From: Limnohabitans sp. G3-2
GTDB lineage: Bacteria; Pseudomonadota; Gammaproteobacteria; Burkholderiales; Burkholderiaceae_C
DNA length: 64,000 nucleotides
Direction: 5' to 3'
Assembly: GCF_002778275.1 (NCBI RefSeq)
Contig: NZ_NESG01000002.1
Coordinates: 62,001 to 126,000 of the forward strand
The notes beneath the pieces are model-generated. The model searched no databases. It had not been told where the DNA came from and was given only the letters and a program-made list of their open reading frames with translations. The translations under genes and the position numbers were made by a program. Positions 35,884-50,582 of the stretch are shown here, piece by piece; the stretch's first letter is position 1; every line of letters starts with the position of its first letter.

Positions 35884-37074
35884 ATGAACTTTGACATTCC
35901 ACCAGACATTGCTGCCCTGCGCGACCGCACGCGGCAGTTCATTGCCGAGCAAGTGATCCCCCTCGAGGGCGACCCGCGCCACGGCCTGCACGGCCCGTCC
36001 GAAGACCTGCGCCGCGAGCTGGTGGCCCGCGCACGCGCAGCGGGCTTGCTCACGCCGCATGCCTCCTTGGCGATGGGCGGCCTGGCCCTGAGCCACATGG
36101 CCAAGGCGGTGGTGTTCGAAGAGGCCGGGTACTCCAACCTGGGGCCGACCGCGCTCAACATCCACGCCCCCGACGAAGGCAACATCCACCTCATGGAAGA
36201 AGTGGCCACCCCCGCGCAAAAGGAGCGCTGGCTGCGCCCGCAGGTGGCGGGCCTCACGCGCTCGTGCTTTGCCATGACCGAGCCCGACCCAGGGGCTGGT
36301 GCTGACCCGTCGATGCTCCAAACCACCGCGGTGCAAGAGGGCGACGACTACCTGATCAGCGGCGTCAAATGGTTCATCACCGGGGCCGACGGTGCGGATT
36401 ACGCCATCGTCATGGCCCGCATGGAAGACGGCACGGCCACCATGTTTTTGACCGACATGAACAAAGCGGGCATCACGCTCGAGCGCAGCATGGACGCGAT
36501 GGACAACTGCTTCACCGGTGGCCACGGCGTGCTGCGTTTCGACAACTTGCGTGTGCCCGCCACCGATGTGCTGGGCCAAGTGGGCCAAGGCTTTCGCTAC
36601 GCCCAAATTCGCTTGGCACCCGCACGCCTGACGCACTGCATGCGCTGGCTGGGACAGGCCCGGCGCGCACACGACATCGCACTGGCCTACGCCAGCCGCC
36701 GCCAAGCCTTTGGCAAAGCACTGGCCGAGCACGAGGGTGTGGGTTTCATGCTGGCCGACAACGACATCGACCTGCACACCGCACGGCTGCACATCTGGCA
36801 CACCGCCTGGCTGCTGGACCAAGGCCACAAAGGCGGCTTTGAATCGAGCCGCGCCAAAGTGGCTTGCTCCGAAGCCGAATGGCGCGTGGTGGACCGCTGC
36901 GTGCAAATTCTCGGCGGTCAAGGCGTGACCACCGAAACCCCCGTGATGCGCATCTTCATGGACATGCGCGCCTTCCGCATTTATGACGGCCCGAGCGAAG
37001 TGCACCGCTGGAGCATGGCGCGCAAACTGGTTTACAAGGCGCAGCAGGCTGCTAAAGCTTCTCTGGAGAAATAG
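35884..37074 (+). CDS. Acyl-CoA dehydrogenase, ACAD10/11-like
   Basis: FAD enzyme that introduces an alpha-beta double bond in an acyl-CoA. The 396 residues show the FAD segment CFAMTEPDPGAGADPSML, the YLISGVKWFITGADGADYAI region and the C-terminal Q-I-L-G-G-Q-G-V-T. The end reads Y-D-G-P-S-E-V-H-R-W-S-M-A-R instead of the Y-E-G-T of medium-chain enzymes, so the base Glu there is replaced by Asp, as in ACAD10/11-type proteins. It is the last gene before the CRISPR array, which starts 16 bp after its stop. Confidence 0.9.
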   Translation: MNFDIPPDIAALRDRTRQFIAEQVIPLEGDPRHGLHGPSEDLRRELVARARAAGLLTPHASLAMGGLALSHMAKAVVFEEAGYSNLGPTALNIHAPDEGNIHLMEEVATPAQKERWLRPQVAGLTRSCFAMTEPDPGAGADPSMLQTTAVQEGDDYLISGVKWFITGADGADYAIVMARMEDGTATMFLTDMNKAGITLERSMDAMDNCFTGGHGVLRFDNLRVPATDVLGQVGQGFRYAQIRLAPARLTHCMRWLGQARRAHDIALAYASRRQAFGKALAEHEGVGFMLADNDIDLHTARLHIWHTAWLLDQGHKGGFESSRAKVACSEAEWRVVDRCVQILGGQGVTTETPVMRIFMDMRAFRIYDGPSEVHRWSMARKLVYKAQQAAKASLEK

Positions 37075-37090
37075 CCGCCCACGGGTCATC

Positions 37091-39881
37091 TCTCTGAGCT
37101 GCCTACACGGCAGTGAACTTCAGCAACACCTCGGTCTTGAGCACCTGCGATTTCTGAGCTGCCTACACGGCAGTGAACGCGTCGAGCTTGGCGCCGCTTC
37201 CAGGCACGGCTTTCTGAGCTGCCTACACGGCAGTGAACTCGGCCAACGGCGGCGACAGCTACTGCAAGCTTTTCTGAGCTGCCTACACGGCAGTGAACTC
37301 AAAGCGCTTGAGGGGTGCGATGGGGGTGGTTTTCCGAGCTGCCTACACGGCAGTGAACAGGCTTGGGTGGTGTTTTGCCGCTGTTGTTTTTTTCTGAGCT
37401 GCCTACACGGCAGTGAACACGGGTGCTGGCTGATCTGCCAGCGCCTCCAATTTCTGAGCTGCCTACACGGCAGTGAACGTAGTCATTTGATTCTCCTGCG
37501 CCTTCCCTTTTTTCTGAGCTGCCTACACGGCAGTGAACTGGCTGCGACTTGGTGCAACATTGCGGGGCATTTTCTGAGCTGCCTACACGGCAGTGAACCG
37601 CTGTCCATGCACCAGCACCTCGCGCTGAGCTTTCTGAGCTGCCTACACGGCAGTGAACAAGAAGCGACACAAATGAGTTTCGCTAACTGATTTCTGAGCT
37701 GCCTACACGGCAGTGAACTTCATCCCTGGCTTTGACGATCAGCGCCTGGATTTTCTGAGCTGCCTACACGGCAGTGAACGATGAGGGGCTTGAGGCCAGT
37801 GGCCCGAAAACTTTCTGAGCTGCCTACACGGCAGTGAACCAGTACCCAACCGACAAGGGATGCGGCCAAAATTTCTGAGCTGCCTACACGGCAGTGAACG
37901 GGTTGTGGACGGTGCCCGCTTGGCCCGTGTATTTCTGAGCTGCCTACACGGCAGTGAACCCCAAGTGCATCACTTGCGCGAGGGCCAAGGCTTTCTGAGC
38001 TGCCTACACGGCAGTGAACTTGGTGCGGTCATGTCCAAGTCAAGCTGAATTTTTCTGAGCTGCCTACACGGCAGTGAACGGCACGCCCTACACCTGCACC
38101 AAGCCCTTCTTTTTCTGAGCTGCCTACACGGCAGTGAACCGCAGGCACACACACGCTGTACGCGCGCTATGTTTTCTGAGCTGCCTACACGGCAGTGAAC
38201 GATTCGCCACCACGCTCGTCTGTCACGCCTGCTTTCTGAGCTGCCTACACGGCAGTGAACTGCAAGCGCTTCGTGAATGATCCTTAGTCCAATTTCTGAG
38301 CTGCCTACACGGCAGTGAACGGGTTGGATTTTGTCAATGCATTACGCCCGGTTTTCTGAGCTGCCTACACGGCAGTGAACATGGTGCGCACGTGGGCGCT
38401 TTACTGGCCAATTTTCTGAGCTGCCTACACGGCAGTGAACGGGTTGCCCCAAGCCGCAGCCATTCTGAGTAATTTCTGAGCTGCCTACACGGCAGTGAAC
38501 AGGGTCGCCCCAAGCCGGAGCCATTCTGAATATTTCTGAGCTGCCTACACGGCAGTGAACTTCAGGGTGTCGAGCACGTTGGGCTCGGTGTCTTTCTGAG
38601 CTGCCTACACGGCAGTGAACGTGGCCAGCGCCACGCTCTACCCGGCCCAAGTTTTCTGAGCTGCCTACACGGCAGTGAACAACAGCGGCGCGGCGGCCAG
38701 CCTGACCTTTGTTTTCTGAGCTGCCTACACGGCAGTGAACATTATGGAAATCGATGGCAAAGCCCCTTATTCTTTCTGAGCTGCCTACACGGCAGTGAAC
38801 ACCCATGTGCGCTGTGCCTCCAGCTTGTCAATTTTCTGAGCTGCCTACACGGCAGTGAACGCTGGCGGGCGCCCACGGCGGGCGCTTGCCAGTTTCTGAG
38901 CTGCCTACACGGCAGTGAACTTTTTAAGCCGGGGCGGCACGCGCCTCACGCTTTTCTGAGCTGCCTACACGGCAGTGAACCTCGGGCACGTTGATCTCCC
39001 ACGCCCACTTGATTTCTGAGCTGCCTACACGGCAGTGAACTTTGGGATGACGTGCTGTCATGCATGGGCGATTTTCTGAGCTGCCTACACGGCAGTGAAC
39101 AAAAGAAGCCATTGAGACGGCGGACGGCATCAATTTCTGAGCTGCCTACACGGCAGTGAACGTGGTCTTGCCATGTTGGCATCGGGCAGTTGTTTTCTGA
39201 GCTGCCTACACGGCAGTGAACTTCACGGTTCAGAATTGTCTTGGCAACATCAATTTCTGAGCTGCCTACACGGCAGTGAACATCTGCAACAGCGTGGCGC
39301 AATCGGTCATCGATTTCTGAGCTGCCTACACGGCAGTGAACATGGCCATTGCCGGGGCCGTTTGTGCTTATGATTTCTGAGCTGCCTACACGGCAGTGAA
39401 CAACTACGCCGAGCGCATCACCCTGGCCGAGCATTTCTGAGCTGCCTACACGGCAGTGAACCGCGCCGCAGCGGTCAAAGAGGCCAAGCAATTTTTCTGA
39501 GCTGCCTACACGGCAGTGAACGGGTCATAGTGGGGATTGAACTCGCGCACAGTTTTCTGAGCTGCCTACACGGCAGTGAACTGGTCGTTTCTCGTTTTGA
39601 CGTCGGCCGCCTGTTTCTGAGCTGCCTACACGGCAGTGAACATGACCCCCAAACGCGGCCTAACCCACGCCGATTTCTGAGCTGCCTACACGGCAGTGAA
39701 CACCTCAAAGCTGTGGTTTTCCACTTCGGCATTTTTCTGAGCTGCCTACACGGCAGTGAACTTGGGTAATGGCTTGCGCGGTGTCCCATATTTTTTCTGA
39801 GCTGCCTACACGGCAGTGAACAAGCTCAGTGCGAGCGCGGTCAGCGTCAACGCTTTCTGAGCTGCCTACACGGCAGTGAAC
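37091..39881 (-). CRISPR. Type I-F CRISPR array: 47 repeats of 28 bp, 46 spacers
   Basis: The repeat, read on the minus strand, starts GTTCACTGCCGTGTAGGCAG and ends CTCAGAAA: the canonical type I-F repeat with a palindromic hairpin (CTGCCG...GGCAG). Counted by hand: 47 copies, 43 spacers of 32 bp and three of 33 bp (37719-37751, 38140-38172, 39101-39133). 45 repeats are identical; only 37091 and 37331 carry one change, both at the low-coordinate end, marking it as the old trailer end. Transcription is therefore leftward from the leader at about 39.9 kb, the same strand as the cas operon. Two adjacent spacers (38441-38472 and 38501-38532) are near copies. Confidence 0.99.
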
Positions 39882-40010: not shown

Positions 40011-40583
40011 TCAGAACCAGGGCACGGTAGCTTGACTACTCAAACCGTAGGCACCAAATTCGCCCGACACAGGCTTGGTCTGAATGGGGCCGTGGCGGAC
40101 GAAGAGGCGAAAGCGCTGCCCGCCTGTGCTGTTGCTTTGCAGGTTGATGAACGGGTCGCTCAGCTTGGGCGCTAGCGGCACGTGGATGCATGCTTGCGCC
40201 TGCGCCTCGCTGATGCCCTCGCGCTGCATGAGGCGTTTGACCAAGCGGCGCTTCACCCGCTCGGGACTGCTTTGCACCTGTACGCGGCGCACGCCGCGGT
40301 GCTGCGCCGTGGCGGGCACGGTGGCGATAGGGCTGGTTTGCACCAGTTCGCGCATGGCCCCGAGCCACGGCTGGGCTTGCAGCGCAGTCAAGTCGGCCGC
40401 ACTGCCGTGCAGGCGCAGCACGTTGCCCAGGTGCTTTTTGGTGTGTGCAGGAAAGCTCACACCGACGCTTTGCGTGGCGAGCGCCACCAAGGCTTTATGC
40501 AGCTTGGCGTACAGGGCGTTGAGCAGTACGGTGGCGGGAAACTCTGGGTCTGGCCGCAGGTGGATGTCGATGTAGTGGTTCAT
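40011..40583 (-). CDS. cas6f: Type I-F CRISPR RNA endoribonuclease Cas6f (Csy4)
   Basis: Processes the pre-crRNA at the repeat hairpin and stays bound to the crRNA 3' end. The 190 residues start MNHYIDIHLRPDPEFPATVL. The catalytic His is at position 29 (A-K-L-H-K-A), the same number as in Pseudomonas Csy4. The basic recognition helix is R-V-K-R-R-L-V-K-R-L. The last residues (FGAYGLSSQATVPWF) match the family end. It starts 5 bp after csy3 and is the last cas gene before the leader, the standard I-F order. Confidence 0.96.
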   Translation of the reverse strand: MNHYIDIHLRPDPEFPATVLLNALYAKLHKALVALATQSVGVSFPAHTKKHLGNVLRLHGSAADLTALQAQPWLGAMRELVQTSPIATVPATAQHRGVRRVQVQSSPERVKRRLVKRLMQREGISEAQAQACIHVPLAPKLSDPFINLQSNSTGGQRFRLFVRHGPIQTKPVSGEFGAYGLSSQATVPWF

Positions 40584-40588
40584 GGCGC

Positions 40589-41698
40589 TCAGTCCTCTGC
40601 GTTTTGTCCATTACTTTCGCTTGATTTTTTACCCTTTGCTCGACTAAAAACACCTCCACGGATCAGAACAGCGATTACAAAATTTTTTTGTTCGTCTGAT
40701 AGTTCTTTACCGCACATCCACTTACCCAGTAGCGTGTAGAAGTCATCGTTGGTTTCAGTTGGTTTGCGATACGCGAAAGATTTGTTCGTGACAGAACCAT
40801 AAGGCTCTACGGCAATGGGGCTAGTGATATCAGCCCCCTGATACCAGTTATCAATTGTTCGAATTGCATTTCCAATTTTTTGAGAATGCAAGGCAGCGGT
40901 GTCAGCGACTTTGTACAAAGTCTTCCCTTTTCTGGCTTTTTTTCCATCACTAAGAGTTCTCTCTTGTCCAGACAAGATCAACTCCTGAGATGGATATACC
41001 TCTTGCCCTACCCCCACGCGCACAAAAGCGGTAATGTGCAAAAGCACGTGTTGCTGACCGCTCAAACCGTTTTCAATCAAAGCGGCCAAGGGTTGCACGT
41101 CGCCGCCCTTATTGTTTGAGCCAGAAAAGTCGCAGAGTGAGGTTTTTAACGCATCAAACATCCAGCTTTCTTTGGCTTTACCGTCCACCATGTGGGCCAC
41201 ACGCACTTCCACGTTTTCAGCGCCCATGCGGTTGCGCCATAAAAAGCGGCCATTGGCCAAGTTTTGTGCATAGCGGCTCGCAAGGACTTTTAAACCGAAG
41301 TTGTTTATATAGTCAGTCACGATCTCTTTTAGTCTCGACTCATACGACAGGATGTTGCATGCGGAAGGATGTGCGAATCCCGGCAATATCCTCATGCTGA
41401 ACTGCACTCTCAGCGTGTCGAGATTTGGGGGCAGTCTAGATTCATCTACGGTCTGCAAGTTAGGGTTACCAATATCCGCGTCCAGTTCCGCCGGATCATG
41501 GTCTTTCGTTTGCAAATCGTTCGAAATCGTTCCCCTTATGGATTTTTCAGTAACTTTTATCGCTTGCCAGAGTGACTCATTTGCTCGGTCATTCCAGCGC
41601 CCTGCATAAAAAATTCCATCTGATGGATCAAGCTTTCTTTCAAAAGCCAATACAGGTGGGGTGATGTCCCATGCGGGTTTTGATGCTTTCTTTGCCAT
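40589..41698 (-). CDS. csy3: Type I-F Cascade backbone protein Cas7f (Csy3)
   Basis: Six copies coat the crRNA spacer in the I-F surveillance complex. The 369 residues contain the conserved segment L-A-N-G-R-F-L-W-R-N-R-M-G-A-E and the G-V-G-Q-E-V-Y-P-S-Q-E region. It starts 20 bp after csy2, with AGGAGC upstream of the ATG as ribosome binding site. The C-terminal tail is polar (KGKKSSESNGQNAED). The gene is noticeably more A/T-rich than the flanking chromosome genes, consistent with horizontal acquisition. Confidence 0.95.
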   Translation of the reverse strand: MAKKASKPAWDITPPVLAFERKLDPSDGIFYAGRWNDRANESLWQAIKVTEKSIRGTISNDLQTKDHDPAELDADIGNPNLQTVDESRLPPNLDTLRVQFSMRILPGFAHPSACNILSYESRLKEIVTDYINNFGLKVLASRYAQNLANGRFLWRNRMGAENVEVRVAHMVDGKAKESWMFDALKTSLCDFSGSNNKGGDVQPLAALIENGLSGQQHVLLHITAFVRVGVGQEVYPSQELILSGQERTLSDGKKARKGKTLYKVADTAALHSQKIGNAIRTIDNWYQGADITSPIAVEPYGSVTNKSFAYRKPTETNDDFYTLLGKWMCGKELSDEQKNFVIAVLIRGGVFSRAKGKKSSESNGQNAED

Positions 41699-41718
41699 GG
41701 TGTTTGCTCCTTAAAAAA

Positions 41719-42816
41719 TTAATCAAAGTCAAGTTGGTTGGGGTTGGAAGATGAGGTGTCGTTTTCGCTGTCTCCACGCTCTGCGGCCATGTCGGCCTCA
41801 GCGCTTGGGGCCTTGTCATCGGGTGCGCGGTAGCCGTTCACGCAGCGGTACAAGCCCAGTTCTGGGTCGTACTCGGGTTTCCACATGAAGGCTTCGGCGA
41901 TCTCCAAGCGGTGTGGGCTGACCCATTGACCGATGGAGTACACGCTTTCGACAAAGCGAAAGGGCGTGTTCGCATCGCGAGCGTTGGCTACGGTGCCAGT
42001 CTCGTAGCTGCTTAAGGTGGCAAAGCCCACGGGCATGGGCACCAGCCAGCCTGGGCGCGCGTCTTGTTTCCAAGTCACTTGACCTGTGGCTTCATCCGAT
42101 TGCGCACGGTGGTTGATGCGCGACAAATCCAGCCACGCGTCCAGCAGCGTGGGCGCGGCGCTGGCGCTCGTCGTAGTGGCTTGGGCCGCATGCTCGGCTT
42201 GCAATGTTTGAAGGCGTTGCTGCAGCACGTCGTCGCGCGTGACCAAGGCAAAGCCCGGCAGCAAGCGGCGGCGCAGTTGCTTGAACTGTTTAAGCTGGTC
42301 TTCAGGCTCGGCCTTGAGCACCTCCATGCGCGGTGTACGCTGGGGGGCTCGCAGCTTTTGCAAGGTCGGCATGATGCTGCCCCCCGCCAGCCGCATACCC
42401 GCCACCTCGGCGGCCACGGCCTCTGCGGCGGCTTGCGCGTCTTCGTCACTCACATAGCCTTGGGCTGTATGCACGGTGAAGACCAGAGAAATGTCCAAAT
42501 GCGCACGCCCTTCCTCCACGATGGCGGCTGTGCCGCCGTCTTGCAGCACCGGGTTGCGCGTGAGGGCAAAGCTGCGCGTGTAGCCGCCGGTCGTGACTTG
42601 CGGCTCAAAGCGGTGGCAGACCACGCCCACCGATTCAAAGCGCAGGCTGGCAGCAAGAGCATTGGCCTCGCCCGCTTTTTGCATCAAACGCCGTTGCAGC
42701 GCCACCATGAAGCCGGTGAACGCGGTGATGGCTGGGAAGCCCCAGGTCATGGGGCTGCTGATGCAATTGGCATTTTGCACGCGCAAGCGCGGCAGGGTGA
42801 GCAGGTGCTTAGACAT
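41719..42816 (-). CDS. csy2: Type I-F Cascade protein Cas5f (Csy2)
   Basis: Binds the crRNA 5' handle together with Csy1. I start at the ATG at 42816 (365 residues, MSKHLLTLPRLRVQNANCIS), which overlaps the csy1 stop by 8 bp; the extension to 42915 lies in csy1 and is not conserved. Segments SSPMTWGFPAITAFTGFMVA and GGSIMPTLQK are typical of Csy2. The C-terminus has an acidic tail (AERGDSENDTSS). It is coupled to csy1 by overlap and followed by csy3 after 20 bp. Confidence 0.94.
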   Translation of the reverse strand: MSKHLLTLPRLRVQNANCISSPMTWGFPAITAFTGFMVALQRRLMQKAGEANALAASLRFESVGVVCHRFEPQVTTGGYTRSFALTRNPVLQDGGTAAIVEEGRAHLDISLVFTVHTAQGYVSDEDAQAAAEAVAAEVAGMRLAGGSIMPTLQKLRAPQRTPRMEVLKAEPEDQLKQFKQLRRRLLPGFALVTRDDVLQQRLQTLQAEHAAQATTTSASAAPTLLDAWLDLSRINHRAQSDEATGQVTWKQDARPGWLVPMPVGFATLSSYETGTVANARDANTPFRFVESVYSIGQWVSPHRLEIAEAFMWKPEYDPELGLYRCVNGYRAPDDKAPSAEADMAAERGDSENDTSSSNPNQLDFD

Positions 42817-44275
42817 GGGCCACCTCTTGCTTGGCGTTTTGCGCTGTGGTGTCGGCCAGCTCGTCGGCCCGCATGTCGAGCCAGCACATGGCTTCCTCCA
42901 AGCCGCCGCGCTCATAGGCTTTCAGGGCCTCTTCGCACAGCTTGCGCCACACGTTGTACTCGGGGTCGCCCACGGGCAGGCTGCCTGCTGGGGTGCTTTG
43001 TAATTGGTGGTTGAACCACAGGGCAAAGTCTTCACTCACCACGTTCAGCGTGTCCGTGGGCGGTGTTTGGTTTTGCGCGTGTGCTTGCTGCCATGCGCCT
43101 TCGGGGTCAAGCCAAAACGCGTGCTGTGGTTTGAGTTTGCACTCAGGCTGCGCCACCCAGCCCGACTCCAACTCGCGCAATTCCGTGGTGAATTGCAAAA
43201 GCTCCAGCAGCAAGGCGTTCACATGCTGGGCCCGGCGGTTGCGTGTGGGCAGCGTTGCGGGCGGGTCGGTCTTCAAAAACTTCAGCAAAGTCCGAAGCTC
43301 GGTTTTCACCTCCGCCCTGCGCCCATAACGCCCGAACATCGATTCGGTGTTAAGCAGGGGCTTCAAGGGTTGTGAAACCCATTGCGGAGGGACGGAGGCC
43401 AACAAATAATTTGCGCCTTGGCGAACTTGATTGAGTCGGCTGACATTTCCTTTCGACCGAATGGTTTGCCCACCGATGTTTTTAACTGCAAGCAATGGGT
43501 ACTTGCTTACAGCCAACTCGTGCATCACACCCTTCTCTTGCGCTTGCCATGCTCTGGCCTTGTCAGAAAGTTCTATCTGTTGGTTCTTGAACTTTGGGCT
43601 TTTGCTATTTCTGTAGTGCTTTGCAGCATCTAAATCACCATGAATAAGTTCGTATGCTTTATGCACCAGAGAGCTTGGAAAAAGTGGTTCTAGAAGATGG
43701 AAAGCAGCGTCGTTTTCTACATCTGACGAGATAGGCCAGTACATTTGCTTGGCTAATGTGTGCGCGGAAGGTTGGTCTTCAATCTCCAGCAAAGCCGCAA
43801 AGGATTGCATCCAGCGTTTTGCTTGCTCGGCATCGTCTGACAGTGCAGTGGCCAATGCAACGTCGTTATTCACAGCAAGCTCTAGAAAGGTTTGTCCATC
43901 GAACTCGCGGCTTAAAAAGTCAAAAACATCTAGAACACCTGCATCTCCTGTCACATCAAGTGTGTACTCATTCCCCAAACAGTGGCTACCTACTATGGGC
44001 AATTTTTTAAGACTGGCAGGGTGTGCATGCAGGCTACTTCCTCCTTTAGCACCAGAATGAATCGCTTTGAGCGTATGCGTCACGGCTTGTATGTGACCCG
44101 CCCGCCTTGCGGCATTCTCTAGCCAGTTTTCGGCTTGAAACCGCGCTTGTATCTGCTGCTGAAGTTCAGCCCGTTTGGGGTCGTCGTCCTTCAGTTTTTC
44201 CAGCTTGTCGTTAAGCCGTTTTTGCAAAAACTCGTGAATTATTTTTTGCAACGCTTCACTTTTGTTTTTATCCAT
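42809..44275 (-). CDS. csy1: Type I-F Cascade large subunit Cas8f (Csy1)
   Basis: Recognises the PAM (GG/CC type in I-F) and, with Csy2, caps the crRNA 5' end. I prefer the ATG at 44275 (488 residues, MDKNKSEALQKIIHEFLQKR): it has GGGGTGA a few bases upstream and lies close to the family N-terminus. A longer start at 44329 (506 residues) leaves 7 bp to the cas2-3 stop and is also possible. The segment ENAARRAGHIQAVTHTLKAI matches Csy1. Its middle (43.4-44.1 kb) is distinctly A/T-rich compared with its ends. Confidence 0.9.
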   Translation of the reverse strand: MDKNKSEALQKIIHEFLQKRLNDKLEKLKDDDPKRAELQQQIQARFQAENWLENAARRAGHIQAVTHTLKAIHSGAKGGSSLHAHPASLKKLPIVGSHCLGNEYTLDVTGDAGVLDVFDFLSREFDGQTFLELAVNNDVALATALSDDAEQAKRWMQSFAALLEIEDQPSAHTLAKQMYWPISSDVENDAAFHLLEPLFPSSLVHKAYELIHGDLDAAKHYRNSKSPKFKNQQIELSDKARAWQAQEKGVMHELAVSKYPLLAVKNIGGQTIRSKGNVSRLNQVRQGANYLLASVPPQWVSQPLKPLLNTESMFGRYGRRAEVKTELRTLLKFLKTDPPATLPTRNRRAQHVNALLLELLQFTTELRELESGWVAQPECKLKPQHAFWLDPEGAWQQAHAQNQTPPTDTLNVVSEDFALWFNHQLQSTPAGSLPVGDPEYNVWRKLCEEALKAYERGGLEEAMCWLDMRADELADTTAQNAKQEVAHV

Positions 44276-44336
44276 CTTCACCCCTTTCGTTAAAAAATGC
44301 TCTCGAAAATATTGGCTATCCATACCCATGCAATAC

Positions 44337-47300
44337 CTACTTCATCCGTTCAAACCCCAAAGCGTGGTGGAACTGCCAGCGCGTAATCACATTGCTGTCC
44401 TTCGATTCTTTTAGGGTGATGCCTCCAAACTTTTGGGCGCAATCCTGCATTGGCATATCCAGTTGTTCGGCCAAATCGCTCAGGGCTTGTAAGTAGTTGC
44501 TGGCGCACCAGGGGCTGATGCATTCGGCTTGCAGATGCTTATCGGGAAGTTGTTCCCACTCGCTGTTGGCGCTGATCCACACCGCTGTTTTTTTGCCCCA
44601 TCCTTGTCGTGTCTCCACCACTTTTTCAAGCTGCACTGCATCACCCTCTTCATTGGGCATAAGGCGAAATTCCACCTCTTTACGCTTGTCGCTTTTGTCG
44701 TAGCGAAAAGGCTGCATGCGGGGCAAAGTGGCTGTGAGGGTGGCGTCGTGCGGGGGCAGGTGCCAGCAGGTGGCGGCGTTCAGCGGGGCATCGCTGTTTG
44801 TACGTGCCAGCATGGTGTCTTGCATGCGAGCGTGTTCCAAATCGGGCAGCAATGTTTGGACATTCAGCACGGCGGGGGCTTGCAGACGTGGGCTTGCATC
44901 AATGGTGAACATGGCCTGTTTGTTCAGCAAAGGCTGTATCAGTTGGGCCATGTCGTGCGTTTTCAGCTTGAAGGCCTCGCAGGTGTTTTCAAACCCAGGT
45001 TTTACAAAGCAAGGCTGTGCTTTGCCGCTTTGTTTCCAATGCTTGTAGTTGTACTGAAACACGCGAATGTTGGGCGTGGTGATGTGGGTTTCGCCCACCT
45101 TCAAGGGCCGATGTCTGCGCACGCGCCCAGCCAGTTGGATGAGCGAGCGCATGGACGAGGGTTCGACAATGGCCCAGTCGTAATCGTGGTCGCGCCCCAC
45201 CTCGGTCACGGGCGAGCCCAGCACAATGAAAAGCTGGTCTTGCGCCGCGTGGGCGTTGATGCGTTGGCGAATGTCGGGCAAGTCAAACACGGCATTGGGC
45301 GTTTTGCGGTTGAGGGCTGCGTCCAACTGCTGCTCAATGCGAGAGCGCAAGAGCAAGGGGTATTGCGAGTGATAAGTGCACAGGTGCACGTGCAGACCTT
45401 CGGGCCAGGGGTGCTGGTAAAGGGCTCGGGCCACCTGCACCAGAGGCTCGATGTTGGCCATGCGCACCAAGCCAAAGCTCACACGCTTGGTGCTTTTCGT
45501 GTCTGGGCTGTGGTGGGCTTGGTGCAGCTTGGAGGCCAGTTGGGCAATGCGCTCGGCGAATTGGCGGGGCAAATCTTCGGGGTTGTTTGGCCCCTCTTTC
45601 AAGTCCAACTTGGCCAGTTGTGCCAAACGGGCCGGACGCTCTTGCTCGGGCTTGGGGCGCTTCAAGCGTGCCAAGCGCTGCGTCACAAATTGCTGGTGCT
45701 CAGCAGCAAAGCGGGCGGCGTCGGGGCAGGCGCTGTGCTGCACATCAAATTCATCCACCCACAGGCAGCACACATTCAAGGTCAGGCCGGGTTCGCCCCG
45801 GTTGGCTTGAAAGTGCGCACGCCCTCGGGCGTAGGCAGCAAACAGGCCCTGCACCATGTCGGGCGGCAAGGTGGCAGACGACAGCAGCACGCGCGAGCCC
45901 AGCAAACCCGCCCAAAACACCAAGCGCGTGAGCGCGGGCAGGTCGGCCATGTCAAAGTCGTCGGGCTCGTCCAGCACCAAGTCGCTGCTCATGAGGCGAA
46001 GCATGGGCGCAATTTGGTGACCGCCGCGCGTGCTTTCGGTGGCGGGCACCAAGTGGTCGATGGTGCAGACCAGCAGGGGGGCGGTGATGAGGCTTTTGCT
46101 GTGCGCATCGTGCAGCACACGTTTGAGCAAGGGATGGGCGTCGGGGTTGCCCTCAAACAGCACATGGCTGCCCTCGTCCATCAAGTCTTGCGCAGAGGCC
46201 GAACCGCTTTTTTCAGCCTCTTGTTGCTGGTGTTCAAACAAGGCTTTTTGCGCGGCACCGCCCACCCGAATGGCAAGGTCTTCTTCGCTCAAATTAAGTA
46301 GGCTTTGAAACGCCCGCCCGGTTTGCAGAGTGAGTGTGCGCAGCCCCAAGGAAAACGCGCAGCGCATGCCCTTTGCAGGGTCGGCCAAGGCGTACATGAT
46401 GCGGGCGTTGGCCAAGGTTTTGCCGCTGCCCGTGGCGGCCAAGTTGACGATGAACGCGCCTTGCACATGAGCATTGGTGCGCAGGCTGGAAGCCAAGTCA
46501 AAGGCTTTGTTTTGCCATCGAAATCGCAGTTCGGTGCTGGGTTTTTTTAAACCCTTGTGTTGACACAGGCCGGGTAATTCGCGCTGCAAACTGGGCAAGG
46601 CGCGGGTGACTTCGCCGCCGTGCTGGGCCACGCCCAACAGGTGTTCGTCCAATGTTTGATTGAAAACCGTTTTGTTTGTCAGCTTGTCAAAGTAGGTGTT
46701 GGCATAGACCGGAAAGTTGGGTTTTCCGCTGGCATGGGTTTGGCCTTCGACACGGCCTTGCATGGCAACAGGCTTGCCATCTTTCACATCAAAACTCAAA
46801 CGCGAGTAGTGGTGATCGGCCAGCATCAAGCACAGGCGCGTAACGTGCATGAGGTAGGGGTTGCCCAACCAAGCGCTGTGCTTGGACAACTCCAAACGCT
46901 TGAGCAAACCCTGCGCCACCCGCGCAGCCCGCTTGCGCCACAGCGCGGTGGTCACGGGCAGGTGGCTGGCGGGGATGTCCCAATAAGCTTCTACGGGCAA
47001 GGCTTTGCGAGTTGGCCTGTTTGTGGTTTCGCTTTCGTCATCGTCTTTGCCCGAGCGAGGTCTGGAGTCTTCATTCCAATAGGCGGTGACGTTCTGGAGC
47101 ACGTCAGCCAATGCGGCTTCGGTGTCGATGTTGTCATCTGGCTCTTGCGGCAAACGATGATGAGTAACCACCAGCCAAGCTACCGCCTGCGCCAGCGGTG
47201 CGTTTTGCATTGCGACAAAAGGGGCTTCGGTATTACTGTCCACACCGTCACGCTGAAAACGCTCTGGCGCAGTCCAACTTTCGTCGTCAGCCTGAGTGGG

Positions 47301-47822
47301 ATTGACCAAACGGGATAGCCATTGCGCATCGCTGTCTTGCCCCACAAAGGCTTGAAATAAGCGCAGCGACACCCACTCATGGCGGTATTGATTTCGCTCG
47401 GTCAAATCGCCCGTGAGGCGTTTTTGAAAAGCCACGCTGGCTTTGCCCAAATCGTGCAAAAGCGCAGCCAGCACGGTGAGCAGGTGAATGTCATGCCCGG
47501 TATGCCAATCGTTCTCGTCGTCTTGGCGCAAGATTTTGCGCTGCGTGGTGTTGGTTGGCGTAGCCCCCACGGCGTTGAATTGCTTGCTGTCACCCACCAC
47601 CCAGAGCAATTCACTGTGGTCAAGGCCGCGTATCCAGTGGCAGGCCACCGCCGTGTTTTTGCGAGCGGTTTGGCGCAGCAGTTTGCGCACGGTGTTCAAA
47701 CCCATTTGGGTGATGGTGGTTTGCCAAGTACGTTCACCGCGACGCTCTGCGAATTGATCCAAGATCCGTCGCGTCTCGGTGAGGGCGCGTTTTTCGCACT
47801 GACTGACAAAGAGCACATTCAT
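44337..47822 (-). CDS. cas3: Cas2-Cas3 fusion nuclease-helicase, type I-F
   Basis: Recruited by the Csy complex to unwind and degrade target DNA; it also acts with Cas1 in adaptation. Of 1161 residues, about 1-95 form a Cas2-like domain (MNVLFVSQCEKRALTETRRI). Next comes the HD nuclease with the H-D dyad at 123-124 (LLHDLGKAS). The helicase has Walker A A-T-G-S-G-K-T near 464, the DEAD-like L-V-L-D-E-P-D near 617, motif III L-S-S-A-T-L-P near 650 and motif VI Q-L-A-G-R-V-R-R-H-R near 900. The start overlaps the cas1 stop (ATGA). All catalytic motifs look intact. Confidence 0.96.
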   Translation of the reverse strand: MNVLFVSQCEKRALTETRRILDQFAERRGERTWQTTITQMGLNTVRKLLRQTARKNTAVACHWIRGLDHSELLWVVGDSKQFNAVGATPTNTTQRKILRQDDENDWHTGHDIHLLTVLAALLHDLGKASVAFQKRLTGDLTERNQYRHEWVSLRLFQAFVGQDSDAQWLSRLVNPTQADDESWTAPERFQRDGVDSNTEAPFVAMQNAPLAQAVAWLVVTHHRLPQEPDDNIDTEAALADVLQNVTAYWNEDSRPRSGKDDDESETTNRPTRKALPVEAYWDIPASHLPVTTALWRKRAARVAQGLLKRLELSKHSAWLGNPYLMHVTRLCLMLADHHYSRLSFDVKDGKPVAMQGRVEGQTHASGKPNFPVYANTYFDKLTNKTVFNQTLDEHLLGVAQHGGEVTRALPSLQRELPGLCQHKGLKKPSTELRFRWQNKAFDLASSLRTNAHVQGAFIVNLAATGSGKTLANARIMYALADPAKGMRCAFSLGLRTLTLQTGRAFQSLLNLSEEDLAIRVGGAAQKALFEHQQQEAEKSGSASAQDLMDEGSHVLFEGNPDAHPLLKRVLHDAHSKSLITAPLLVCTIDHLVPATESTRGGHQIAPMLRLMSSDLVLDEPDDFDMADLPALTRLVFWAGLLGSRVLLSSATLPPDMVQGLFAAYARGRAHFQANRGEPGLTLNVCCLWVDEFDVQHSACPDAARFAAEHQQFVTQRLARLKRPKPEQERPARLAQLAKLDLKEGPNNPEDLPRQFAERIAQLASKLHQAHHSPDTKSTKRVSFGLVRMANIEPLVQVARALYQHPWPEGLHVHLCTYHSQYPLLLRSRIEQQLDAALNRKTPNAVFDLPDIRQRINAHAAQDQLFIVLGSPVTEVGRDHDYDWAIVEPSSMRSLIQLAGRVRRHRPLKVGETHITTPNIRVFQYNYKHWKQSGKAQPCFVKPGFENTCEAFKLKTHDMAQLIQPLLNKQAMFTIDASPRLQAPAVLNVQTLLPDLEHARMQDTMLARTNSDAPLNAATCWHLPPHDATLTATLPRMQPFRYDKSDKRKEVEFRLMPNEEGDAVQLEKVVETRQGWGKKTAVWISANSEWEQLPDKHLQAECISPWCASNYLQALSDLAEQLDMPMQDCAQKFGGITLKESKDSNVITRWQFHHALGFERMK

Positions 47823-48856
47823 GCCGTACCGCCTGTGCTTGCTTGTTTGGCGGCCTGGTTTTGTGCTTGTGCGTTTGCTTGTGCTTTTTGCCCCAACTGC
47901 AACGCCACGGCTTTGAGGGTGTCGATCATGAAATCCAGCGTCTCGTGCCGCGTGAACAATTCGATGCAGGCATGGCGAAAGTCTTGTTCGCTGTCGCCCC
48001 GCGCCGCGCTGACGAAGGCTTGTGGCAAGACCAATGCGTCTTTGACCAAATCGGCCACGTCAAACACCAAACCACCACGTCGGGTTTTGCCGTGCAATAC
48101 CGCAAAACCGTGCGGCAAGCCCAACACCCAAGTTGCCGTGGCCCCCAAACCGTAGGCCAAGTAGTTGCCATGATCTAGAAACTGGTTGGCTGCGTCCACA
48201 CTCTCGCCCCGGCTGCTACGCGTGAATTCGCCGTAGCGCACCGCAGCACTGGCCAGGCGGTAGAGCTGTTTGGTCAAACGCGCTTCTTCGGTGAGCAAGG
48301 CCGTTTGGTCGGTCGCGGCCCCGACAGCGACTTGGCTGATGTGCACCAACTGCGCCAGGGCGTCGGGGCTTGGGGCAGCAGGTGCATCACCCCAGAGTTT
48401 GGCCCGAGCCCAATGTTGCTTCAGAGCTTGCAGACGAGCCAACTGAAAAGCCTTTGCTGCCTCCAAGCGCAGGGCATCGTCAAACCAAAAGCGGCACCAG
48501 TGCTGCAGGTATTCGGTGGGGCGGTACTCGCTTTGAGGTGACAACCATTCAACGTCCACGCTGCGTTCGGTGGCCGCAAACAAGGGTGTACCGCCACCTC
48601 CGCAAAACCCCAACATCACCCCCGCCTTGGCCAGTTCGCGTACCGCCGCCTGTGTGATGGAGGTGCCACTGCCAAGCAGCACCGTGGTGGTGTTGGCGAT
48701 GGGGATGTTCCAGTACAAAGATTGCTTGCCTTGGTCGGTCACGTACTCCACGCGCCCACCGTTGACCAACACCCGGCAATGCTCCAGGTAGTACAGGTTG
48801 GCGCGCTTGGACATCAGGATTGATTTGAGATCGCCAGACGCTATCGATGGCTTCAT
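47819..48856 (-). CDS. cas1: CRISPR integrase Cas1, type I-F
   Basis: Metal-dependent integrase that inserts new spacers at the leader end. The 345 residues include SKRANLYYLEHCRVLVNGGR near the N-terminus, LLTEEARLTKQLYRLASAAV with the catalytic Glu, and the H-G-K-T-R-R-G-G-L-V-F-D-V-A-D segment near residue 260 with His and Asp. The start at 48856 agrees with Pseudomonas I-F Cas1, whose first residues precede SKRANLYYL by a similar distance. It is the first gene of the operon. No good Shine-Dalgarno sequence is visible. Its stop overlaps the cas2-3 start. Confidence 0.97.
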   Translation of the reverse strand: MKPSIASGDLKSILMSKRANLYYLEHCRVLVNGGRVEYVTDQGKQSLYWNIPIANTTTVLLGSGTSITQAAVRELAKAGVMLGFCGGGGTPLFAATERSVDVEWLSPQSEYRPTEYLQHWCRFWFDDALRLEAAKAFQLARLQALKQHWARAKLWGDAPAAPSPDALAQLVHISQVAVGAATDQTALLTEEARLTKQLYRLASAAVRYGEFTRSSRGESVDAANQFLDHGNYLAYGLGATATWVLGLPHGFAVLHGKTRRGGLVFDVADLVKDALVLPQAFVSAARGDSEQDFRHACIELFTRHETLDFMIDTLKAVALQLGQKAQANAQAQNQAAKQASTGGTA

Positions 48857-48879
48857 ATGGTCTATTTACGAATAACTTA

Positions 48880-49053
48880 TTAAACAAATTCAATTCCATG
48901 TGCCTTAGATGCCGCATCCCGGATGACCGCTCGCCGCACTGACTCGACCTCTGTAATGGCACAGAAGCAAGCCGCCACATCCAGCATGTGTGCCGTCAAA
49001 GGATGACTTTGCCCTTCCCGATTCAATTTGCCCCAAGCATTTATTTGTTACAT
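48880..49053 (-). pseudogene. Relic of a Cas3 N-terminus from another CRISPR subtype (probably I-E)
   Basis: Minus-strand codons 49047-48880 are open for 55 residues: Q-I-N-A-W-G-K-L, then S-H-P-L-T-A-H-M-L-D-V-A-A-C-F, then an Arg-rich helix, ending G-I-E-F-V and a stop. W-G-K-L...H-P-L-x-x-H-x-x-D-V-A-A is the N-terminal HD-domain signature of type I-E Cas3, unlike the I-F Cas2-3 next door. The only in-frame ATG (49053) is followed at once by TAA. An out-of-frame ATG at 49042-49040 (ATGCTTGGG) would restore an M-L-W-G-K start with one extra T. The rest of the protein is missing; I-F cas1 starts 23 bp further on. Confidence 0.65.
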
Positions 49054-49107
49054 GATCAAACACAATAATAAATACTATTTGACTCATTTTTAAAATTTCG
49101 TCGAGAT

Positions 49108-49136
49108 TTGACACGATTTTATTTTGTGGCCACAAT
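49108..49136 (+). promoter_or_regulatory. Promoter and palindromic operator of brnTA
   Basis: TTGACA (49108-49113), then a 17-bp spacer and CACAAT (49131-49136), look like a sigma-70 promoter. A perfect 12-bp palindrome TTGTGGCCACAA (49124-49135) covers the -10 region and ends 3 bp before the brnT ATG, a natural place for autorepression by the antitoxin. No Shine-Dalgarno fits, so the brnT mRNA may be leaderless. Confidence 0.5.
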
Positions 49137-49138
49137 AA

Positions 49139-49438
49139 ATGTATCAAGACATCAGCTATGACCCGCTCAAAAGTCTTCGCAATGAAATCGAGCGTGGCCT
49201 GCCGTTTTCTTTGGTGTTGGAACTTGAGTGGGACTCAGCCCTGATCAAAGAAGACACGCGAAAAGATTACGGTGAACGGCGTTTCAGAGTGCTAGGACTC
49301 ATTCAGGGTCGACTTCATGGCGTGGTCTTCACACCACGAGTGGACAAAGTTCATGTCATCAGCCTGCGCAAAGCCAACAACAGAGAAGTTAAGCAATATG
49401 AGCAAGTCAAAAGTTCAACCGCACACACCCGACATTGA
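49139..49438 (+). CDS. brnT: BrnT-family ribonuclease toxin
   Basis: RelE-fold toxin that cleaves mRNA. The 99 residues read MYQDISYDPLKSLRNEIERG; the core is E-D-T-R-K-D-Y-G-E-R-R-F-R-V-L-G-L-I-Q-G-R and the end V-H-V-I-S-L-R-K-A-N-N-R-E-V-K-Q-Y-E, the BrnT (DUF497) pattern. ATG 49139 is the only Met available near the N-terminus and has no ribosome binding site. The antitoxin start lies inside its 3' end (41 bp overlap). It is divergent from cas1 with 282 bp between; it may stabilise the defence island. Confidence 0.88.
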   Translation: MYQDISYDPLKSLRNEIERGLPFSLVLELEWDSALIKEDTRKDYGERRFRVLGLIQGRLHGVVFTPRVDKVHVISLRKANNREVKQYEQVKSSTAHTRH

Positions 49439-49697
49439 TAACCCGGCATGGAAAAGAGAAGACTTTGCCAAAGCCCGCCCCGCGCGTGAGGTGTTGCCCG
49501 GCATTTTCAGCAAAGGGCGCACGGATGCTTTGTTGAAGCCCCGCGGTCGCCCCAAGGCCGATGTGACCAAGGTCCGCGTCGGTATCCGACTTTCACCCGA
49601 TGTGATCGATCATTTCAAAGCCAGCGGCGATGGCTGGCAAACGCGCATTGACGCTGCGCTGCGTCAATTCATCGCGGAGCACCCAGGCTCACGCTGA
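49398..49697 (+). CDS. brnA: BrnA-family antitoxin
   Basis: DNA-binding antitoxin (DUF4415) that neutralises BrnT and represses the pair. The 99 residues from the ATG at 49398 begin MSKSKVQPHTPDIDNPAWKR, the usual D-N-P-x-W segment of BrnA. A flexible middle is followed by a ribbon-helix-helix: GRPKADVTKVRVGIRLSPDV then IDHFKASGDGWQTRID. It overlaps brnT by 41 bp. Its stop lies 2 bp from that of the convergent pyrF. An upstream frame from 49317 is the out-of-frame shadow of brnT. Confidence 0.88.
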   Translation: MSKSKVQPHTPDIDNPAWKREDFAKARPAREVLPGIFSKGRTDALLKPRGRPKADVTKVRVGIRLSPDVIDHFKASGDGWQTRIDAALRQFIAEHPGSR

Positions 49698-49699
49698 CA

Positions 49700-50545
49700 T
49701 CAGGCCGCCTTGGCCGCTTCCAAGGTGTCGCGCGTTTGCAGTGCGACTTTCCGCGCGGCTTGCTCGAAGTCGTCACCGCTCGATGCGTAGAGCACGGCGC
49801 GCGATGAGTTGACGATGACCGGGCCGGCGCTGCTGCCGTCTGCGTTGGCGCGCCAGCCGGCCTTGACCGTGGCGACCGCGTCGCCGCCTTGTGCGCCCAC
49901 GCCGGGAATCAGCATGGGCACGGTGGGGGCCAATTCGCGCACGCGCTCAATCTCGGCTGGGTAGGTCGCGCCCACCACCAGGCCCAGCTGGCCATTCAAG
50001 TTCCAGGGGCCTTGGGCCAATTGGGCGATGTGTTCGTACAGGCGCGGTTGGCCATCCACCGAGGCCAGGCGCTGGTTTTGCAAATCGTCCCCGCCAGGGT
50101 TGGAGGTGCGGCACAGCAAAAACGCGCCTTTGCCGTGGTACTTCAAATAGGGGGCCACCGAGTCCCAACCCATGAAGGGCGAGAGGGTCACGGCATCCGC
50201 ACCGTAGCGCTCGAAAGCTTCTTTGGCGTACTGCTCGGCGGTGCTGCCGATGTCGCCGCGCTTGGCGTCCAGAATGATCGGCACATGCGGGGCCACCCGG
50301 CGCATGTGCGCCATGAGCCGCTCGAGCTGGTCTTCGGCGCGGTGCGCGGCAAAGTAGGCGATTTGCGGTTTGAAGCTGCTGACCAGGTCGGCCGTGGCAT
50401 CGACGATGCGGGCACAAAAATCGTAGATCTTGTTGGCGTCGCCCTTGTAGGCGGCCGGGAACTTGGTGGGTTCGGGGTCCAGGCCCACGCAAAGCATGGA
50501 GCCGTTTTGGCGCTCGGCGGCGCGCAGCATGTCGAGGAAGGTCAT
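49700..50545 (-). CDS. pyrF: Orotidine 5'-phosphate decarboxylase (type 2)
   Basis: Last step of UMP synthesis. The ATG at 50545 (281 residues, [20 protein letters not shown]) fits the longer type-2 PyrF group of betaproteobacteria and actinobacteria. The catalytic motif [10 protein letters not shown] (Asp-Lys...Asp) is present near residue 92, and I-P-G-V-G-A-Q-G-G binds phosphate. It converges with brnA and follows the GntR regulator by 37 bp on the same strand, so it could be cotranscribed with gntR, although functionally unrelated. Confidence 0.95.
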
Positions 50546-50582
50546 GGGATGCGATTTTAAGCGGCGCCCCACAACCGGCGCT

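Follow-up and report, generated by a model that had tools for sequence, protein, structure and literature searches.

The window, a stretch of 64,000 nucleotides from Limnohabitans sp. G3-2, contains directly upstream of a type I-F CRISPR-Cas operon a minus-strand segment (48910–49053) that almost certainly represents the 5′ end of a cas3 gene of type I-E, which remained as a type I-E system was lost and the type I-F system took the same slot. The homology of the segment to cas3, its position and orientation as in relatives, the mosaic junction at its end, and the stop at codon 2 were observed directly. The stub implies that I-E would have preceded I-F in this lineage, and the incoming I-F module probably stems from another lineage. 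This slot is flanked by pyrF with a brnA-brnT module and, at its opposite end, by an acyl-CoA dehydrogenase gene; the I-E system would have been lost there with the 5′ end of cas3 remaining, and the I-F system would have come to occupy the slot. The replacement by I-F of an older system, probably I-E, had been proposed in a sequence-only reading of this DNA, and the proposal is supported by the I-E systems that we found intact at the same locus in two other genomes of the genus (G434 and G444).

The open frame described in that reading lies on the minus strand at 48880–49044, as was claimed, and comprises 54 residues and a stop, with 23 bp between its end (48880) and the start of cas1 (48856). 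Profile searches bore out its identification as the N-terminus of a Cas3 HD domain: Pfam Cas3_HD matched the frame with an E-value of 2.7e-7 and 31.3 bits (curated cut-off 23.1) over profile positions 1–46 of 207, and PADLOC Cas3e matched it with an E-value of 2.1e-5, the next Cas3 model reaching 0.016. By these scores, its closest kind of Cas3 is that of type I-E. No family was matched in the NCBIfam search of the frame, and phmmer against PDB chains gave a weak match only (E-value 0.1). Within the genome itself, Cas3_HD scored above the cut-off only at the relic and at the I-F Cas2-3, the latter over profile positions 46–167. When 399 genomes of the family (including this one) were searched with the relic, 17 matched at an E-value of 0.01 or better, and the 16 other matches all fell within open frames of 851–1349 codons; the cas3e of G434 aligned with all 16 at 29–61% identity. 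The same search in 90 genomes of the genus returned this genome and three others (G434, G444, and G476; 73–80% identity). The profile scores, together with the family and genus matches, rule out a chance likeness to Cas3. As a short frame, the stub occurred in 1 of the 90 genus genomes, and this genome was alone in that respect among the 399 of the family. Since only positions 1–46 of the HD profile are represented and the helicase is missing entirely, the relic, with its stop at codon 2, lacks the complete HD nuclease and helicase of a functional Cas3 and cannot yield a working protein.

The old start codon is retained at 49053–49051 and is followed by TAA at codon 2 (49050–49048), where the relatives have AAA or AAC, and then by approximately 45 codons of the Cas3 N-terminus; the last codons of the frame at 48880–49044 fall within the seam and show no likeness to Cas3. 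Read from the old ATG, the frame is open throughout except at codon 2. The sequence-only reading held that the only in-frame ATG is followed by TAA, which is correct for the ATG at 49053 but overlooked another at codon 23 counted from there, the M of HMLDV. It also suggested that the start had been lost by a one-base deletion at 49034–49042. This is excluded, as the alignment with G434, G444, and G476 is gapless there, the TTGGGG stretch having identical letters in G434 and G444 and one substitution in G476; the frame is interrupted by the stop at codon 2 instead. Over codons 3–44, pN/pS was 0.22–0.42 between this copy and the relatives (19–20 differences per comparison, G476 itself being broken further downstream) and 0.12–0.19 among the three relatives. 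The raised ratio would fit a piece of coding sequence recently out of use.

Relatives were sampled at one genome per species. In G434 and G444, the gene order is pyrF, an MFS gene, brnA, brnT, cas3e, cse1, cse2, cas7e, cas5e, cas6e, cas1e, cas2e, and the array. The I-E system of G434 is complete (the PADLOC check covered cas3e, cse1, cse2, and cas6e) and has a cas3 of 888 codons (PADLOC Cas3e, 548 bits), that of G444 has a nearly identical layout, and both agree with the relic in locus, orientation, brnT neighbour, and position of the start codon. Their cas3 genes are 76% and 73% identical to the relic over 45–46 residues; whereas these genomes have the whole gene along with the other I-E genes and the array, the relic retains approximately 45 codons, interrupted by a stop at codon 2. 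Beyond the array, the acyl-CoA dehydrogenase gene follows in G434, and the G444 contig stops within the array. All genus relatives of the relic (3 of the 89 other genomes) lie behind pyrF, as the relic does, and the intact cas3e genes of G434 and G444 place it at an orthologous position. A search of the genome for the I-E repeat, allowing up to three mismatches, found none, and a candidate array remnant within the slot was rejected when its best match, 18 of 29 letters, proved to be at the level of shuffled sequence (18, 19, and 18 in three shuffles). Because no I-E repeat was found in the genome or above shuffle level in the slot, cas3e is the sole I-E trace left.

A longer stub is present in another species. 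At the same locus, the cas3e of G476 extends over approximately 248 codons and changes frame near codon 230. It is followed by a single degenerate I-E repeat, which matches at 23 of 29 letters (the best of 300 shuffles reached 20), and then by the end of a Pfam Beta-lactamase gene; in the regions fetched from other genomes of the genus, this gene has a different location. We had considered G476 as a holder of an intact I-E system and dropped this reading in view of the shortened cas3 and the single degenerate repeat. No other cas genes were found on its contig, which is 4.7 kb of an incomplete genome. G476 thus seems to have undergone a near-whole loss of I-E at this slot, from inside cas3 to a last repeat, and we count it as an intermediate kind of decay that would speak for I-E loss at the locus.

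The junction between the two systems can be located in the alignment. In the window, brnT, the intergenic region, and approximately 45 cas3e codons track the I-E relatives, and this likeness fades at about 48926–48910. From about 48888, the sequence resembles the I-F genome G417, weakly up to cas1 (48857–48888) and strongly at the first bases of cas1, where one 60-base window near the start of G417 cas1f is 92% identical; the identity is far lower elsewhere. Between the two lies a seam at 48889–48909 (approximate limits; minus strand), in which the I-E likeness has faded and the G417 likeness has not yet begun.

The resident I-F system consists on the minus strand of cas1 (47819–48856; PADLOC Cas1f, 495 bits), cas2-3 (44337–47822; Cas23f, 1253.7 bits), and csy1, csy2, csy3, and cas6f (40011–44329; Cas8f, Cas5f, Cas7f, and Cas6f), all open, and of an array with 47 repeats of 28 nt (37091–39881). 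The module looks acquired, because its csy1 is nearer to those of G210 and G342, which belong to other genera of the family (50% identity), than to that of the genus mate G385 (38%). By this comparison, the module is not the I-F found in its genus mates, with the possible exception of the beginning of cas1. The best named matches to cas1f, among the matches listed, were 73–74% identical. In the best 80 of these listed loci, some of which end at contig ends, a search at an E-value of 1e-3 found no match to I-E cas3, cse, cas5–7e, or brnTA; it returned cas1e/cas1f cross-matches, one short cas3c (L175), and one MFS gene (L190). Similarly, no brnTA match was found within the fetched flanks of the 16 family I-E cas3 loci. 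On the evidence of these two sets of loci, neither the stub nor brnTA regularly accompanies I-F or I-E. The segment was also missing from all three other I-F loci of the genus, so the case that would have spoken against a relic, a conserved leader beside I-F, was not seen.

We then compared the site across the genus. The slot is anchored by pyrF (49700–50572, minus strand; Pfam OMPdecase, 106 bits) and by the acyl-CoA dehydrogenase gene (35884–37074, plus strand; Pfam Acyl-CoA_dh_1, 143.8 bits); pyrF was located in 85 of the 90 genomes, and the region behind it was taken for 60 of these and for G448. Cas1-family genes were found in 18 of the 90 genomes and inside the slot in nine, of which two carry I-E (G434 and G444), four I-F (this genome, G417, G385, and G437), and three I-C (G401, G466, and G448); G476, with its I-E stub, is a tenth genome. 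Typing of G401 as I-C rests on PADLOC matches to Cas3c, Cas5c, Cas8c, Cas7c, Cas4c, and Cas1c; the Cas3 of G448 was also typed as I-C by PADLOC, and the Cas3 proteins of G466 and G448 are 95–96% identical to that of G401. The cas1f gene was present in 4 of the 90 genomes, always beside pyrF. The other nine Cas1-positive genomes have Cas1 only outside the slot; additional Cas1 genes are found outside it in G444 and G448 as well. No second I-E or I-F site was found in the 90 genomes; the Cas1 genes outside the slot were typed in part, and I-C may also occur elsewhere. At least seven genomes (G419, G442, G412, G264, G427, G189, and G460) have an empty slot, the dehydrogenase gene lying at most 90 bp from pyrF. 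When mapped onto a tree of pyrF from 62 genomes, the slot labels required 10 changes, compared with a mean of 9.9 for shuffled labels, the label ‘no’ also covering loci whose contig ends before the slot; slot content thus appears to be independent of this tree, which is of one gene and has unsettled bootstrap values. With I-E, I-F, and I-C systems found behind pyrF between the same flanks, we consider the site a swap slot for type I systems.

Other differences were seen around pyrF. In G434, G444, G476, G401, and G466, pyrF and brnA are separated by an MFS gene. This gene is missing from the present locus, which has therefore undergone other changes too. Here, brnA and pyrF almost abut (49698–49699). 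The same interval contains an enoyl-CoA hydratase-like gene in G448 and, in G417, a frame with a nucleotidyltransferase-binding (HepT-like) match. Directly 5′ of pyrF, a Cas9 gene (Pfam HNH_4, RuvC_III, and Cas9_a) occurs in G471 (L221, 1047–5993), where a Cas1 gene adjoins it, and in G430 (L222, 7986–12368); CRISPR systems are therefore possible on either side of pyrF in the genus. G411 has two adjacent Cas1-family genes of 366 and 265 codons with a Cas6 gene nearby (L223, 7655–9556), and such paired matches were also observed in G404, G408, and G448.

On the pyrF side, the slot is bordered by a BrnT-BrnA module, with both Pfam families in tandem on the plus strand: the toxin gene brnT (49139–49438; BrnT_toxin, 62 bits) and the antitoxin gene brnA (49398–49697; BrnA_antitoxin, 84.6 bits). 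The brnA gene was found at this side in all nine Cas1-bearing slots and in G476, and brnT in this genome, G434, G444, G476, and the I-C genome G448; brnT was searched for and not found in the slots of G417, G385, G437, G401, and G466. In these five, brnA without brnT stands beside I-F (G417, G385, and G437) or I-C (G401 and G466; loci L056, L057, L058, L078, and L070). G401 has a second brnA fragment (L078, 12507–12599; codons 3–33, 61% identity) at the far I-C end near the dehydrogenase gene, oriented as the complete brnA at 2248–2580, and the two may possibly represent a repeat flanking the I-C system. Fragments of brnA were also observed in slots without any of the searched cas genes, in G416 (L084, 1680–1868) and as short pieces in L064, L076, L092, and L094; these are perhaps traces of earlier occupancy.

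The region from brnT to the old cas3e start (49054–49138) could be aligned with the I-E genomes and with the I-C genome G448. For the stretch that separates brnT from the first cas gene, local scores were 101 for G434/G448 (best of 500 shuffles 28) and 73 for this genome/G476 (27 shuffled), and weaker for this genome/G448 (39 vs. 28) and G434/G401 (42 vs. 26). A palindrome lies in this region, 20 bp long in G434 and 12 bp long here (49124–49135). A palindrome that spans the promoter of a toxin-antitoxin module would be in keeping with autoregulation. The first cas gene was at the brn side in all 10 genus genomes with I-E, I-F, I-C, or the stub in the slot, and the promoter of the stub may possibly now drive the I-F operon. 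A broader reading is that the stub records promoter capture: successive type I systems would settle behind one standing promoter region facing brnT, an incoming operon, with the former cas3 start serving as its leader, would be transcribed immediately, and binding of BrnA/BrnT at the shared palindrome would couple CRISPR expression to the toxin-antitoxin module. We regard this reading as rather doubtful, since the palindrome is missing from the brnT-less genomes with I-F and has a changed core in those with I-C, which speaks against BrnA being retained there as a cas regulator, and since three promoter-like sites at 48700–49450 are not clearly above the shuffles (mean 1.0, S.D. 1.0). A literature search that covered few subscription papers found no description of a cas operon with BrnT or BrnA next to it.

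As to how the I-E stub came to stand before I-F, the exchange may have taken two steps, in which deletion first reduced I-E to a stub, as seen in G476, and I-F later entered the vacated slot; we give this course slightly less than an even chance. The stub of G476, with no other cas gene on its contig, is in its favour, and the empty slot of several genus genomes indicates that systems do get lost there, but the G476 contig is short and no genome was seen that has the short stub of the window without I-F. It is also conceivable that the seam was made elsewhere, and that recombination in the flanking genes brought in a single segment already carrying brnTA, the cas3e stub, and I-F. The discordance between slot content and the pyrF tree would agree with such an import, as would the confinement of the high cas1f identity with G417 to one short window. 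We nevertheless hold it to be improbable, as no stub-bearing donor was found and the short frame is restricted to this genome in both the genus and the family sets.

That the stub has been retained as a small functional protein or decoy seems most implausible. The frame is open apart from codon 2, pN/pS is below 1, and internal ATG and TTG codons are available; however, pN/pS is higher than among the relatives, the stub stands beside I-F in only one of the four genus genomes with I-F, and the tail of the frame is seam sequence and not Cas3.

In situ replacement of CRISPR-Cas types has been published by Puigbo et al. 2017 (PMC5379612), who describe a locus between thiD and pknB that holds II-C or I-E in Corynebacterium, as well as III-B and III-D at one locus in Clostridium botulinum, and the in-place exchange of CRISPR-Cas modules has been reviewed (PMC6452270). 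The present locus resembles the former cases in that different types lie between the same genes in related genomes, and differs from them in having three type I subtypes in one slot, a stub at the seam, and brnTA at the border. In Salmonella and Shigella flexneri, cas3 pseudogenes remained after I-E loss (Touchon and Rocha 2010; PMC2886076), a broken cas3 being the last I-E trace as it is here; the accessible part of that paper describes no other subtype in the place of I-E, whereas in the window I-F follows within about 50 bp. The locus is therefore a well-documented new case of a known process.

Subtype replacement is usually inferred from whole-locus comparison, whereas here the seam itself is resolved to a few tens of bases. 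Within a single genus, the same flanks enclose complete I-E, I-E stubs of two different lengths, I-C, two I-F modules that are dissimilar, or no system at all. The sequence of events and the mechanism of the exchange are therefore directly testable. The findings raise the question of whether the place where incoming systems settle is determined by a resident promoter and toxin-antitoxin module, and the swap slot with its common toxin-antitoxin border is the part most worth following.
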